Shown here: one piece after another, positions 13,151 through 18,913 of the stretch
Layout of the letters: each line of letters begins with the position of its first letter
Numbering within the stretch: the first letter of the stretch is position 1
IMG/VR virus record: IMGVR_UViG_3300006754_000220
Location: 1 to 21,840 of that record
Length of the DNA: 21,840 nucleotides
From: a virus
Reading direction: 5' to 3' (one strand)
Position numbers and translations under genes: made by a program
Notes under the pieces: generated by a model
Told to the model about the DNA's origin: nothing
The model's database searches: none
The model's input: the letters and a program-made list of their open reading frames with translations, nothing else

Positions 13151-13447
13151 GTGTTAACAATTAGGATACTAGGATCCCGTAAGGTGATGAGGAGTCTTGA
13201 AAGAGAAAAAGATTCTTTCATTACCAGGGTGGCAAATGATATTTTAGGAGTTGCTCGTGGAAAAACTCCTATAGATAAAGGACAGGCAAGACGTGGTTGG
13301 CGCCTAGACTCACGCTTCAAGATGAAGAGTGTTGTCAATCGTGTTCCCTATATTGTCCATTTAGAAGAAGGCCACTCAAAACAAGCACCTAATGGTATAA
13401 TAGGGCCTACCGTTAGGGAGATATCACAAAGGAGATATAAACTATGA
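13151..13447 (+). CDS. HK97 gp10-like tail completion protein
   Basis: A protein of 98 residues. IRILGSRKVMRSLEREKDSF, then ARGKTPIDKGQARRGWRLD, and VPYIVHLEEGHSKQAPNGI, is the classic gp10-like pattern: an N-terminal helix, A-x-x-x-x-P-x-D-x-G-x-x-R-x-x-W, then YxxxLExGxSxQAPxGx. Start choice: GTG at 13151 keeps the N-terminal strand (IRILG) but has no clear ribosome site. ATG at 13187 has one but would remove this strand, so GTG is preferred. The end overlaps the next gene by ATGA. The place after the tail tube is unusual against the typical order before it, but it occurs. Confidence 0.75.
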   Translation: MLTIRILGSRKVMRSLEREKDSFITRVANDILGVARGKTPIDKGQARRGWRLDSRFKMKSVVNRVPYIVHLEEGHSKQAPNGIIGPTVREISQRRYKL

Positions 13448-13782
13448 CCGTAATGAATAACATTACAGGCCACTTCAAAGAAAGACTAGCAGGTGGCTTA
13501 AAAAAGATAACTGTTCCCGAATGGAAAACAGATATCTATTATAAAGGTGCCTACCCTTTTGCTGTTGAAAGTAAAATTATTGCTTTACAACAACAAAATA
13601 AAACTGTAGAAGCACTTGTGGAAAGTCTTATTTTAAAAGCATTGAATCCAGATGGAAAACCTCTGTTTAATAGAATGGACAAAAACACTTTAATGAATGA
13701 AGCAGACCCGGCTGTATTGCTAAAGGTTTGTTCAGAGTTAAACAATGCGACAACTGATTATGAGGAAATCGCAAAAAACTAA
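13444..13782 (+). CDS. Tail assembly chaperone, short form (gpG-like)
   Basis: A protein of 112 residues from the zero frame, ending ...EEIAKN. It is mostly helical and lies right after the tail tube and completion genes and before the tape measure, the fixed place for the gpG-type tail assembly chaperone. It overlaps the upstream stop as ATGA, with AAAGGAG at 13429-13435. The last sense codons are GCA AAA AAC before TAA, which makes a slippery A AAA AAC at 13773-13779. The chaperone would coat the tape measure and recruit tube subunits but is not in the finished virion. Confidence 0.85.
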   Translation: MTVMNNITGHFKERLAGGLKKITVPEWKTDIYYKGAYPFAVESKIIALQQQNKTVEALVESLILKALNPDGKPLFNRMDKNTLMNEADPAVLLKVCSELNNATTDYEEIAKN

Positions 13783-13967
13783 AAGAGGACACTGAACTCC
13801 AGTTATTGTTTCGAATTGCTGAAACATTACATAAAAGCATTGAAGAAGTAATGCAACTCAGTGTCCTGGAAATCATGACGTGGTATGAGTGGTTTAAACT
13901 ACAACATGATAGAAGTAAGGAGACCTTAAGTGGCAACACAGCAAATAGAAATCCGCGCCGTCGATAA
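13444..13967 (+). CDS. Tail assembly chaperone, -1 frameshift long form (gpGT-like)
   Basis: Join of 13444-13779 with 13779-13967 after a -1 slip on A AAA AAC (13773-13779). The extension adds 62 residues, for 174 in all: LKEDTELQLLFRIAETLHKS, then IEEVMQLSVLEIMTWYEWFK and LQHDRSKETL to the TAA at 13965-13967. The segment SVLEIMTWYEWFKL has the acidic-aromatic motif common in the T part of such chaperones. The extension has no credible start of its own and runs 38 nt into the tape measure gene, as usual. In lambda the same kind of -1 slip gives gpG and gpGT in a fixed ratio. Confidence 0.85.
13773..13867 (+). other. -1 ribosomal frameshift site with a long-range RNA stem
   Basis: The slippery heptamer is A AAA AAC at 13773-13779. 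After a 6-nt spacer (13780-13785), AGGACACTGA at 13786-13795 pairs perfectly with TCAGTGTCCT at 13858-13867, giving a 10-bp stem. The 62-nt loop can hold two smaller hairpins: GTTTC 13808-13812 with GAAAC 13821-13825, and ATTAC 13826-13830 with GTAAT 13848-13852. The 6-nt spacing is in the range expected of a stimulatory structure. Complementarity is read by eye. No energy was calculated. Confidence 0.75.
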
Positions 13968-16425
13968 AACTCGTGGGACGCTTAATAAAGTCCAAAAAAA
14001 CCTGGGCAGAATTGACAAATCAGCCAAAGGTATCAGCCTTTCGTTTGGAAGAATTGCCGCGGCGGCTACTGGTGTATTTGCTGGATTAGGTTTAGTAAAA
14101 GCCGCTACTGGTTTAATAGAAGTAGGTAAATCATTAGAAAATCTTGAAGTTCGATTAAAACTCTTATATGGTTCAGCTTCTGAAGGTGGTGCGGCATTTG
14201 ACGAAATGAACAAGTATGCTTCTGAGGTTGCATTTAGTTTAGAAGAAATTCAACAAGGTGCTGGATCATTAGCGATTGTAACTAAAGACGCAGACGAACT
14301 TGCAAATGTGATGAGGTTGACAGGTAATGTGGCCGCGGCCACAGGATTGGATTTTGCTACATCATCTCTACAAATGCAGAGGGCGTTGACTCAGGGTATA
14401 TCCTCGGCGGATATATTTAGAGATAAAGGTGTAGCCAATATGTTAGGTTTCGCCGCTGGTGCAACTGTATCAGCAGAGCAAACAAGAGAGGCATTTGAAA
14501 GAGTATTTGGCAAAGGTGGTAAGTTTGGAAAGGCCACAGAAATGTTAGCAGATACATTGGAGGGCACACTTTCAATGATAAGCGATAAAGTATTCAACTT
14601 CAAGAAAAGAATGTTAGAAGTTGGAGCATTTGACTCTTTAAAAATACAAGCATCAGCATTAAACGATAAACTAACAGAAATGAAACCCGAACTTGATGCT
14701 TTGGCAAAATTATTTGGCGACAAATTAGGATTTGGTGTTTTTCAAGTGGCTGAGTTTATTAAAGGCCTTAACATAAGTATGCAGGATCTAATAGTTGGTG
14801 CCAAAGTGGTAGCGGCAGTATTAGGAGGTGCAGGACTTCTTGCAGTTGTTAAAGGACTTACTCTTGGCATTCGGTCTTTAACATTAATGATCGCCAGAAA
14901 TCCATTAGGCTTGTTAGCCGTAGCGGCATCAAGTTTAATTGTATGGCTTAGCATGGAGAATGGACTTGGCAAAACTATTACTCAAGTTATTGCAGTCTTT
15001 AAAAGACTTGGACAACTTGCAGAAAAACTTGCAAAATTCCTCTATGATCAATTAGGTAAAGTATTAGATTTCTTAACAGAACAATTTGATAGGTTTGTTG
15101 GTGGTGTTATACGTGGTTATAATGCTATAGCGAGATTTATACCATTCTTAGACGAAGTAGAATCTAGTGGAGCCCAAGTAAGAGCAGGTCTAAAGGCTCT
15201 TGCTGTCGAAGGATTTAACTATGTTGACAAAGCAATAGGTGATACTGGAAAGTCCATAACAAAATACATTGACATCAACAAACTTGCTAATGATGCAATG
15301 AAAAACGCAAAACTGCTTCTCGAGGATTTAACAATGGAGTGGCGGCAAGCGGGTATTACATATGACCAAGCTAGTGTGCAACAGCGAGAAAAGTATGATG
15401 CTCTTATAAAAACTGCTAAAGCCTTACAGGACTTAAAAGATGCAGAGCAAGAAGCCAACGCGGCGGGACAAAAAAATAATCAAACAACTGCCGCGGCAGT
15501 ATCAATATATAAAGAAAAAGCAGACGCAATGATTAAAGCCGCATCTCAGCTGAACAGGGAGATGGCTGAAAACGAGATTGAAACTCTTAGAAAAATTAAA
15601 GACCACGCTTTAGAAATTCAGAAAGCGTCACTTGAAGCTAAAAAAATAACAGAAGATGAGTTTAGAGAAAGTAAAATTGCAATTGAAAAGAACTTGCAAG
15701 AACAAATTACTCAACTTGAAGCCGACGAATTAGAAAAACGAGAAGCCCGACACAAAGAGTCAATGGAAAAAAGATTGATGGCGTCTAGAGGATCACTGAG
15801 TGACGCAATTACTGATGAAGACAAAGCATTATGGAAGAAACAAGGTGTTGAGAAAAAGAAAAAAGATTTAATTGACGAAAGAGCAAAATGGGAACGAATG
15901 TCCACTATCGAGCAAACAGCATTTGGTATTGGTCAAGCAAAAGCATTGTTTGGGGCATTAGGTAAAGAGAATAAAAAGTTTTTTGCGGCACAGAAAGCAA
16001 TGGCTATTGCAGAAGCACTTATTAACACATACCAAGGTGCCACAAAAGCATTAGCACAAGGTGGTATATTAGGCATCTTTATGATGGCTGGTGTATTAGC
16101 GGCAGGGTTTGCACAAATATCTGCCATTAGGGCACAGACGGCACAACGAGGTGGAACTGTATTAGGCGGAGCCACAGCATTAGTTGGTGAAGACGGACCT
16201 GAACTTATTGTTCCTAAACAAAGTTCAACAGTCATCCCAAGAGAAGTAGCAGATGCTGTTGGGGGCATTAGTGGAGACATGGGCGGTGAAGTAAATGTAA
16301 ACTTTAACATAACAACAGTTGATGCAAGGGACTTTGATCAACTACTTGTTGAAAGACGTGGAACTATTGTTGGTATTATTAACAATGCTATGAATCAACA
16401 AGGCAAAGTGGGAGTAACTGCTTAA
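13930..16425 (+). CDS. Tail tape measure protein
   Basis: A protein of 831 residues. It starts at GTG with AAGGAGA at 13917-13923. The N-terminal ~200 residues (IEIRAVDKTRGTLNKVQKNL, SLENLEVRLKLLYG, DFATSSLQMQRALTQGISSA) are the TMP core region. Hydrophobic segments lie at ~290-342 and ~710-732, and long charged helices at ~540-640. The C-terminus carries LGGATALVGEDGPELIVPKQ, which is the usual GExGPElv end of siphovirus tape measures. At about 1.5 angstrom per residue the tail would be near 125 nm. No peptidase or lysozyme motif is visible inside. It ends in TAATG, now leading into the homing-type gene. Confidence 0.9.
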   Translation: MATQQIEIRAVDKTRGTLNKVQKNLGRIDKSAKGISLSFGRIAAAATGVFAGLGLVKAATGLIEVGKSLENLEVRLKLLYGSASEGGAAFDEMNKYASEVAFSLEEIQQGAGSLAIVTKDADELANVMRLTGNVAAATGLDFATSSLQMQRALTQGISSADIFRDKGVANMLGFAAGATVSAEQTREAFERVFGKGGKFGKATEMLADTLEGTLSMISDKVFNFKKRMLEVGAFDSLKIQASALNDKLTEMKPELDALAKLFGDKLGFGVFQVAEFIKGLNISMQDLIVGAKVVAAVLGGAGLLAVVKGLTLGIRSLTLMIARNPLGLLAVAASSLIVWLSMENGLGKTITQVIAVFKRLGQLAEKLAKFLYDQLGKVLDFLTEQFDRFVGGVIRGYNAIARFIPFLDEVESSGAQVRAGLKALAVEGFNYVDKAIGDTGKSITKYIDINKLANDAMKNAKLLLEDLTMEWRQAGITYDQASVQQREKYDALIKTAKALQDLKDAEQEANAAGQKNNQTTAAAVSIYKEKADAMIKAASQLNREMAENEIETLRKIKDHALEIQKASLEAKKITEDEFRESKIAIEKNLQEQITQLEADELEKREARHKESMEKRLMASRGSLSDAITDEDKALWKKQGVEKKKKDLIDERAKWERMSTIEQTAFGIGQAKALFGALGKENKKFFAAQKAMAIAEALINTYQGATKALAQGGILGIFMMAGVLAAGFAQISAIRAQTAQRGGTVLGGATALVGEDGPELIVPKQSSTVIPREVADAVGGISGDMGGEVNVNFNITTVDARDFDQLLVERRGTIVGIINNAMNQQGKVGVTA

Positions 16426-17488: not shown

Positions 17489-18051
17489 TGGCACGACTAG
17501 CAGGTGGAAACACTAACACAGCATTAGCCAGAGATGCTATTGTAACTTATTTGCTATTAGATCTAAATGGCACATATTACACAGACGCTCCTTATGATAT
17601 TGTTTACGATTCTAAAACATTCTCAGCACAAGGAATCTTTTTAAGTATTACCTCAGCAAGTGAAACTTCCGAATTATCAATCACAAGTATTACAATAACC
17701 TTAAGTGCTTTAGATCCAACAACAGTTTCTACGTTTGCAGTTAGTTCTCTTATTAATAAAGATGTTGTTATACATAGAGCATTAGTTGACCAGACTGACA
17801 ATAGTATTATAGATGATAGCACAGGCGATGGACCTATTTTAATATTCCAAGGTCGTGTTGCTGGCTATCAAATTAATGATGCAGAAAAAACAGCAGGACT
17901 GGCTATCCAAGTAGACAGTTTATTTTCTAACTTTGAAAAAGTAAGTTGTCGTAGAACAAATTTAAAAAACTTCCAAAGAGAATATCCGGCAGACTTTAGC
18001 ATGGAATATTCACATGAAGCAATTAAAGATATACGTTGGGGCAAAAAATAA
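17488..18051 (+). CDS. Tail hub protein (gpL/DUF2163-like)
   Basis: A protein of 187 residues. The N-terminal half (ALARDAIVTYLLLDLNGTYY, YDSKTFSAQGIFLSI, SELSITSITITLSALDPTTV) and the middle (KDVVIHRALVDQ, PILIFQGRVAGYQINDAEKT) match the strand order of hub proteins of the DUF2163 / lambda gpL type. The end VSCRRTNLKNFQREYPADFS, then HEAIKDIRWGK, resembles the C-terminal CRRTNxxxxQ...D region that carries a metal centre in lambda gpL. Here only one Cys is present, so an iron-sulfur site of the four-cysteine type is not supported. It is coupled at both ends by TAATG. Confidence 0.65.
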   Translation: MARLAGGNTNTALARDAIVTYLLLDLNGTYYTDAPYDIVYDSKTFSAQGIFLSITSASETSELSITSITITLSALDPTTVSTFAVSSLINKDVVIHRALVDQTDNSIIDDSTGDGPILIFQGRVAGYQINDAEKTAGLAIQVDSLFSNFEKVSCRRTNLKNFQREYPADFSMEYSHEAIKDIRWGKK

Positions 18052-18530
18052 TGATTAGAGAATTTGAACCCAAAGATTTAAACGGAATTTTAAACATAGC
18101 AAAATATCATGCTGGTGAATTAGAATTCAATTCAGTAATACCCATTGACGATGTTTATTTGTCAAAGCAATTAAAAAGAATATTAATGAATGATGGTATT
18201 AAATGTTTAGTAGTAGAAAAACATAATGACATTATAGGTTATGCTATATTCTACCTACATACTAAATTATGGAACCCTACTTTGTTTGGGCAGTTAGCTT
18301 TCTTTTATATTTTAGATGGCGAACGTAATAAAGTAATTGCAGATATGTTATGGTCAGAAGTTATAGCAGTCTGTAAAAAACACGGAGCACAGTTTTTTGA
18401 AAGTGATATTTGTGCATTTAATAAAGACTGGATAGGATCAGCAGATGCAATAGACAGAGCATCAACATACTTTGAACACAAGAATGGTAGTCATTGTGGC
18501 AATCATTATATACATAGGATACCAGCATAA
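18051..18530 (+). CDS. GNAT-fold acetyltransferase-like protein in the tail-tip operon
   Basis: A protein of 159 residues. The ATG at 18051 overlaps the upstream stop (TAATG); a longer reading from 18036 would run inside the hub gene and is not preferred. MIREFEPKDLNGILNIAKYH, KCLVVEKHNDIIGYAIFYLH, GQLAFFYILDGERNKVIADM and LWSEVIAVCKKHGAQFFESD follow the GNAT order of strands and helices. The usual R/Q-x-x-G-x-G/A acetyl-CoA loop is replaced by GERNKVIA, so binding is uncertain. It takes the place where many tail operons have a NlpC/P60 peptidase. It may modify a virion or host protein, or be a structural exaptation. Confidence 0.6.
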   Translation: MIREFEPKDLNGILNIAKYHAGELEFNSVIPIDDVYLSKQLKRILMNDGIKCLVVEKHNDIIGYAIFYLHTKLWNPTLFGQLAFFYILDGERNKVIADMLWSEVIAVCKKHGAQFFESDICAFNKDWIGSADAIDRASTYFEHKNGSHCGNHYIHRIPA

Positions 18531-18534
18531 TGAA

Positions 18535-18882
18535 TTACCTATTCCTTTTCCAATATTTGTTTGTTGTATTACGTTCAACTTCGTCTCGTTTGTTATCTTT
18601 AACAGTTCCATTATACAAATGGTTAGGATTTACACAAGGTGGATTATCGCAAGTGTGGCACACTAGAGGTTTATTTGGATCTAATCCTTTTGAGATGTGC
18701 ATAGAATATCTATGTGCTTGCCAATGTTTGCCATCAACAAAAAATTTGCCATATCCTTCTTCATGCGTAGTTGCTGTCCAAACCCAACAAGAACCTGTTT
18801 TATCTACTTTAGACCAAAAGCGTTTAATTGGATCGCCTTTACGTCTACCTAACCCTAATCTAATTTGGTTTCCATGTAACAT
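18535..18882 (-). CDS. HNH homing endonuclease, antisense in the tail operon
   Basis: A protein of 115 residues from the ATG at 18880-18882, which has GGAG six bases upstream; another in-frame ATG at 18892-18894 would add four residues. GSCWVWTATTHEEGYGKFF, WQAHRYSMHISKGL and VCHTCDNPPCVNPNHLYNGT, then VKDNKRDE, is a complete HNH_3-type nuclease: AHR, then VCH with the catalytic His, CDNP-CVNP-HL and the Asn/His metal site, ending DN..D. It lies convergent to the GNAT gene, with stops only a few bases apart, and is the only + strand interruption. Such free-standing enzymes cut alleles lacking the gene. Its own promoter precedes it on the - strand. Confidence 0.85.
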   Translation of the reverse strand: MLHGNQIRLGLGRRKGDPIKRFWSKVDKTGSCWVWTATTHEEGYGKFFVDGKHWQAHRYSMHISKGLDPNKPLVCHTCDNPPCVNPNHLYNGTVKDNKRDEVERNTTNKYWKRNR

Positions 18883-18913
18883 TGTAAACTCCATTAAGTT
18901 AAATTATAGTAGT

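Follow-up and report, generated by a model that had tools for sequence, protein, structure and literature searches.

Frameshifting by -1 in tail chaperone genes is already known and widespread among phages, and its stimulation by an RNA stem is likewise established. In the lambda G/GT system, with the slip site G GGA AAG, the major tail protein, the chaperone, the -1 extension and the tape measure protein follow one another in this order, and the heptamer lies near the end of the chaperone ORF. HK97 gp13-type chaperones offer a second point of reference through their fold. Furthermore, E. coli dnaX combines the A-rich heptamer A AAA AAG with an upstream Shine-Dalgarno-like sequence and a downstream stem of about 10-11 bp, and in IS911-type elements an A-rich slip site is followed on its 3' side by a three-way junction whose stem closes a large loop. 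Cultured pelagiphages related to the virus studied here (HTVC111P, HTVC112P, HTVC202P and HTVC026P) encode homologous chaperones and extensions. Yet some tailed phages have no apparent stimulator, and certain ones seem to shift without stimulatory signals altogether (Atkins et al. 2016, PMC5009743).

The stretch of DNA that we analysed (the window, 21,840 nucleotides, from a virus record of 21.8 kb) has a GC content of 37% and carries a siphovirus-type structural module with terminase, portal, major capsid, major tail protein, chaperone and tape measure genes. The chaperone gene sits between those of the major tail protein and the tape measure protein, directly upstream of the latter. From comparison of this locus with its relatives we conclude that the marine phage very probably makes two forms of its tail-building chaperone by a one-base slip of the ribosome. 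We are highly confident in assigning the element to programmed -1 ribosomal frameshifting as in lambda G/GT, with a long-loop stem as the putative stimulator and probable Shine-Dalgarno-like help. Its parts, with the evidence for each, are as follows.

13444 to 13782, forward strand: putative tail assembly chaperone, short (G-like) form, frame 0, 112 aa (ORF, PHROG 344, predicted fold, gene position)
13762 to 13765, forward strand: GAGG, Shine-Dalgarno-like, 7 bases 5' of the slip site (conservation, codon constraint)
13773 to 13779, forward strand: slippery heptamer A AAA AAC (sequence; invariant in relatives)
13780 to 13782, forward strand: frame 0 stop TAA, directly 3' of the slip site (sequence)
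13779 to 13967, forward strand: -1 frame extension (T-like domain), 62 codons and the stop at 13965-13967 (open frame, protein-level selection)
13786 to 13795, forward strand: 5' arm of the stem, AGGACACTGA (10 bp with 13858-13867; covariation; synonymous constraint)
13796 to 13857, forward strand: 62-base loop, coding, without conserved internal structure (synonymous constraint, RNAalifold, folding, helix search)
13858 to 13867, forward strand: 3' arm of the stem, TCAGTGTCCT (pairing with 13786-13795; covariation; synonymous constraint)
13930 to 16425, forward strand: tape measure protein, with a GTG start within the end of the -1 extension (PHROG 3336, E=2e-16)

Like lambda, the window has the gene order described above and, shortly before the chaperone ORF ends, a heptamer of the X XXY YYZ form, but it differs in the slip site A AAA AAC and in the conserved downstream stem. 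With dnaX it has in common the A-rich heptamer, the upstream Shine-Dalgarno-like sequence and the length of the stem; unlike dnaX, its heptamer ends in C instead of G, its loop spans 62 bases, and the fusion is the product of the frameshift, the stop lying in frame 0. The IS911-type junction resembles it in having a stem around a large loop, but the window has no conserved inner hairpins. In the open-access literature we found no description of the window's stem element, and we regard as new the element itself with its long unstructured loop, its proof by comparison, and the different designs seen in sister phages. Comparison gives strong proof here of a putative downstream stimulator at a tail chaperone site, which occurs in many marine virus contigs.

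Support for the identity of the short protein comes from profile and structure comparisons. The window chaperone matches PHROG 344 (tail assembly chaperone) at E=4e-4, as do 16 of 17 of its homologues (best E=5e-6), and its AlphaFold2 model (mean pLDDT 77) matches 2ob9, the tail assembly chaperone of HK97, ahead of all other PDB chains (E=5e-4, TM 0.55-0.61). A tail assembly chaperone with the HK97 gp13 fold is therefore supported by sequence profile and predicted model; a Pfam search matched neither the chaperone nor the extension. The -1 frame runs for 62 codons to its stop and is free of stops in 84 relatives, whereas frame 0 has 5.1 stops and the +1 frame 3.7 stops per 45 codons; its median dN is 0.35 versus a pS of 0.69 in these relatives. 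These figures support the extension as coding sequence under purifying selection at the protein level. Both the chaperone assignment and the 62 additional residues opened by a -1 slip, as proposed in a preliminary description made from the sequence alone, are thereby borne out. The extension is absent from the annotation of the phage records examined (L397:3880-4032, L398:3824-3970, L082:12308-12519), which can now be corrected; in the HTVC111P and HTVC112P records an antisense ORF is annotated where it lies.

At its 3' end the chaperone ORF reads GCA AAA AAC TAA, exactly the -1 slip site first noticed there. The heptamer is kept in 79 of 79 aligned relatives and throughout the enlarged set of 88 introduced below, and the frame 0 stop of relatives is TAA or TAG, or lies one codon further on. 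In E. coli, A_AAA_AAC is far less slippery than A_AAA_AAG (Atkins et al. 2016, PMC5009743), which counts against frameshifting here; together with the tailed phages that seem to shift without stimulators, it makes a weak site combined with a stem plausible for a low-frequency product. Upstream, GAG is present in 81 of 88 sequences of clade A, the clade containing the window, and GAGG in 68 of 88. In 244 clade A pairs of less than 85% identity, from which we estimated synonymous constraint, the Glu codon at GAG 13762 was the same in 244 of 244 informative pairs, versus an expected fraction of 0.56. We consider GAG(G) a candidate that probably gives Shine-Dalgarno-like help to slipping. It lies only 7 bases from the heptamer, however, whereas Shine-Dalgarno sequences that stimulate -1 shifts are found 9-14 bases before it (Atkins et al. 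2016, PMC5009743), and AGGGAG in the E. coli dnaX genome sequence is at 10. The preliminary description had mentioned neither GAG(G) nor the other arrangements of the sister clades.

The two arms, AGGACACTGA and TCAGTGTCCT, form 10 bp with zero mismatches after a spacer of 6 bases (13780-13785), which is the same in relatives and falls within the 5-9 bases typical of 3' stimulatory structures (Atkins et al. 2016, PMC5009743). At this distance the stem would meet the mRNA entry channel during decoding of the slip site. The fold of 13779-13880 has -26.7 kcal/mol (z = -3.7 versus dinucleotide shuffles, 0 of 200 being as stable). Against controls that keep the -1 protein, the result is less sharp: among synonymous codon permutations 7.3% were as stable and 2.2% had an equally long stem near its position, and among sequences resampled from the phage's own codon usage the figures were 0.1% and 1.1%. 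The comparison with codon-preserving shuffles that had been suggested at the outset thus shows a stem length that is only moderately unusual (1-2%), and a stability whose rarity depends on the control. Since 1-2% of such controls carry an equal stem, the single sequence is suggestive rather than conclusive, a doubt that is removed by the comparative evidence. As a separate observation, the upstream AGGA can pair weakly with the 3' arm (13763-13769 with 13861-13867), giving a possible competing fold; this pairing arises because the GAGGA motif is repeated, and with a mean of 0.80 over 7 bp in relatives it is weaker than the stem.

Searching with the chaperone, we obtained 84 related stretches of viral sequence and retained 80; the set was then widened by profile queries and queries with distant members. 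In the first set, the stem was found at the same place in 78 of 78 distinct clade A loci, the 5' arm starting at offset 4-7 and the 3' arm ending at offset 86-89, or at 90-91 in four sequences with one inserted codon. The layout hardly varies, spacer 6 going with a 3' arm end at offset 87, or at 90 after the codon insertion; taken singly, 71% of these loci had a stem at p <= 0.05 versus codon shuffles. An independent pattern scan of viral contigs, in which 29 arm spacings were allowed, returned at least 119 matches. Those listed showed two spacings only, one codon apart (113 and 6 of the 119 listed), and all 116 listed matches with enough upstream sequence encode the same chaperone. In an alignment of 79 sequences, 96.8% of the pair cells were paired, versus 33-43% when the arms were slid by 1-3 columns, and 26 cells had changed on both sides versus 6.2 +/- 2.0 in shuffles (0 of 500 reaching 26), counts that serve as a guide only, given the relatedness among the sequences.

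Nine more distant loci brought the set to 88 distinct relatives, mostly marine virus contigs together with the freshwater phage DSL-LC06. Here we looked for loss of the pairing without compensation, and found instead that at least 8 of the 10 pairs are kept in 88 of 88 sequences, all 10 in 61 of them, with changes compensated. On a tree of the upstream chaperone gene, parsimony gave about 18 double and 32 single pair-keeping changes versus 14 losses, where an inferred double change may represent two single steps with an unsampled intermediate. Varied positions show the pair types CG/UA/UG, AU/GC/GU, CG/UA/GC and UA/AU/GU. Among the clearest compensated cases are the arms of DSL-LC06 (GAGGATGCTGAA/TTTAGCATCCTC) and of the locus L179 (AGGATAGAGA/TCTCTATCCT), with L261-L266 being similar. 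Furthermore, synonymous codon identity clearly exceeds expectation at GAG 13762, the slip site, 13785-13796 and 13857-13868, runs close to expectation across the loop, and climbs once more in the overlap between extension and tape measure gene, as double coding predicts. On this comparative evidence the stem is a real, selected element at a suitable distance from the slip site, and its preservation by matched base changes in 88 relatives indicates that it most likely helps the slip. Among genome contigs a single locus turned up, L163, where element and chaperone both recur on a 28-kb contig assigned to a Porticoccaceae bin; it is perhaps a phage contig in the bin, and perhaps a hint of a gammaproteobacterial host, although one locus is too slender a basis for a host assignment.

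Four features are consistent with -1 ribosomal frameshifting: the spacing, the strength of the stem, the stop that immediately follows the heptamer, and GAGG 5' of the slip site. In the scheme that we infer, which extends to the slipping, its stimulation by stem and GAGG, its level and the function of the fusion, most ribosomes would stop at TAA and yield the 112-residue chaperone (G), and a minority would slip back one base on A AAA AAC while AAA occupies the P site and AAC the A site. Slipped ribosomes would add 62 residues to give a G-T fusion which, by analogy with lambda, might connect the tape measure protein with the major tail protein. The stem would hinder forward movement and so raise the slip rate, and GAG(G) 7 bases 5' would probably add a Shine-Dalgarno-like pull.

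Of the alternatives, the one that survives best, although we consider it improbable, is that the 3' element is a pseudoknot or a branched structure and not a simple long-loop stem. The 62-base loop has the room for it, and the loops of relatives are on average slightly more stable than codon shuffles (z -1.3, where G gene segments give -0.3 to -0.9). However, in the window itself synonymous-codon shuffles of the loop fold just as well (-10.6 versus -10.2 for the native loop), RNAalifold on 79 relatives returned nothing beyond the main stem, and a search of all helices between 40 bases upstream and 150 bases downstream gave the stem (0.97-1.0) as the only one with a mean pairing above 0.9. For an H-type pseudoknot as stimulator, this search showed no conserved second helix joining the loop to downstream sequence, and for an IS911-like three-way junction no hairpins conserved inside the stem. 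The two further loop hairpins once drawn for the window, by which the start of the extension would be a branched RNA, can indeed be drawn, but they confer no excess stability and are not conserved; hence that claim fails, and branching is possible in some members without being a conserved feature. A search of Rfam with 13600-14100 gave chance matches only, none at gathering score. The absence of conserved inner structure does bear on the simple stem that we favour, as a stem closing over 62 such bases is less stable than a compact hairpin.

A further counterpoint to the long-loop stem as stimulator is that sister clades retain the fusion without it. In the tree, each of the three clades, A, B and C, is monophyletic. 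Clade B (56 distinct loci, with HTVC202P and HTVC026P) encodes homologous proteins and likewise has A AAA AAC followed by TAA; its slip site, however, always consists of nine A's and then C, the stem is absent, and GAG occupies the upstream position in only 4 of 56. Clade C (HTVC111P and HTVC112P with 44 distinct loci) has A AAA AAG and, 5 bases downstream, a compact 7-bp hairpin (AGCGACC/GGTCGCT) with a short loop instead of the window's stem, and like the window it carries GAGG 7 bases upstream in HTVC112P and most relatives of that phage.

With its A9C run and no stem, clade B makes transcriptional slippage worth considering. If RNA polymerase slipped and inserted one extra A in the run, the same -1 product would result, leaving another role to the stem, and A9 runs do slip in bacterial transcription (PMC5009743). 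In clade A, though, the run is A6 in the window and about half of the members and A7 in the rest, with two exceptions at A9, generally short of the homopolymer of about nine that such slippage calls for. Moreover, the stem lies downstream of the run at ribosome-entry distance, whereas the stem-loop known from polymerase slippage folds within the RNA exit channel and so on the upstream side (PMC5009743). We consider polymerase slippage at the window very unlikely, and would give equally little credence to a conserved pairing that regulates something other than frameshifting, for instance tape measure initiation or mRNA stability. The stem does end about 60 bases 5' of the tape measure start at 13930, but it keeps a fixed position with respect to the slip site and leaves the ribosome binding site of the tape measure gene uncovered, and constraint acts jointly on GAG(G), slip site and stem. 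Finally, the pairing is hardly conceivable as a by-product of protein conservation, since the arms do encode conserved residues (the E-D-T-E and L-S-V-L motifs), but their codons are conserved far beyond what the residues require, and residue changes (T to V, A or R; S to D, N or T) usually come with a change of the partner, compensated changes that contradict it.

Returning to ribosomal frameshifting as the preferred reading, the sister clades constitute a natural experiment on the balance between slip site and stimulator. Across them, upstream GAG(G) accompanies the stem, and a longer A run accompanies its absence. It is conceivable, though we lean slightly against it, that one lineage has three interchangeable ways to the same G to G-T ratio: A6-7C with GAG(G) and a long-loop stem; A9C without a stem, maybe partly by transcriptional slippage; and A6-7G with GAGG and a compact hairpin. 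Slip-site strength would be traded against the stimulator, the proteins staying homologous. As three clades amount to few independent events at most, this trade-off is only a hypothesis.

Two other genes of the window deserve mention. On the reverse strand, 18535-18894 holds a 119-aa ORF that looks HNH endonuclease-like by eye (CHTCDNPPCVNPNHL), with no Pfam match at E <= 0.01; the annotated HNH gene of DSL-LC06 sits elsewhere, 3' of its major capsid gene. Furthermore, the tail module includes a GNAT acetyltransferase at 18036-18530 (Pfam PF00583, E=1e-5), and DSL-LC06 has a gene annotated as an acetyltransferase at the corresponding position.
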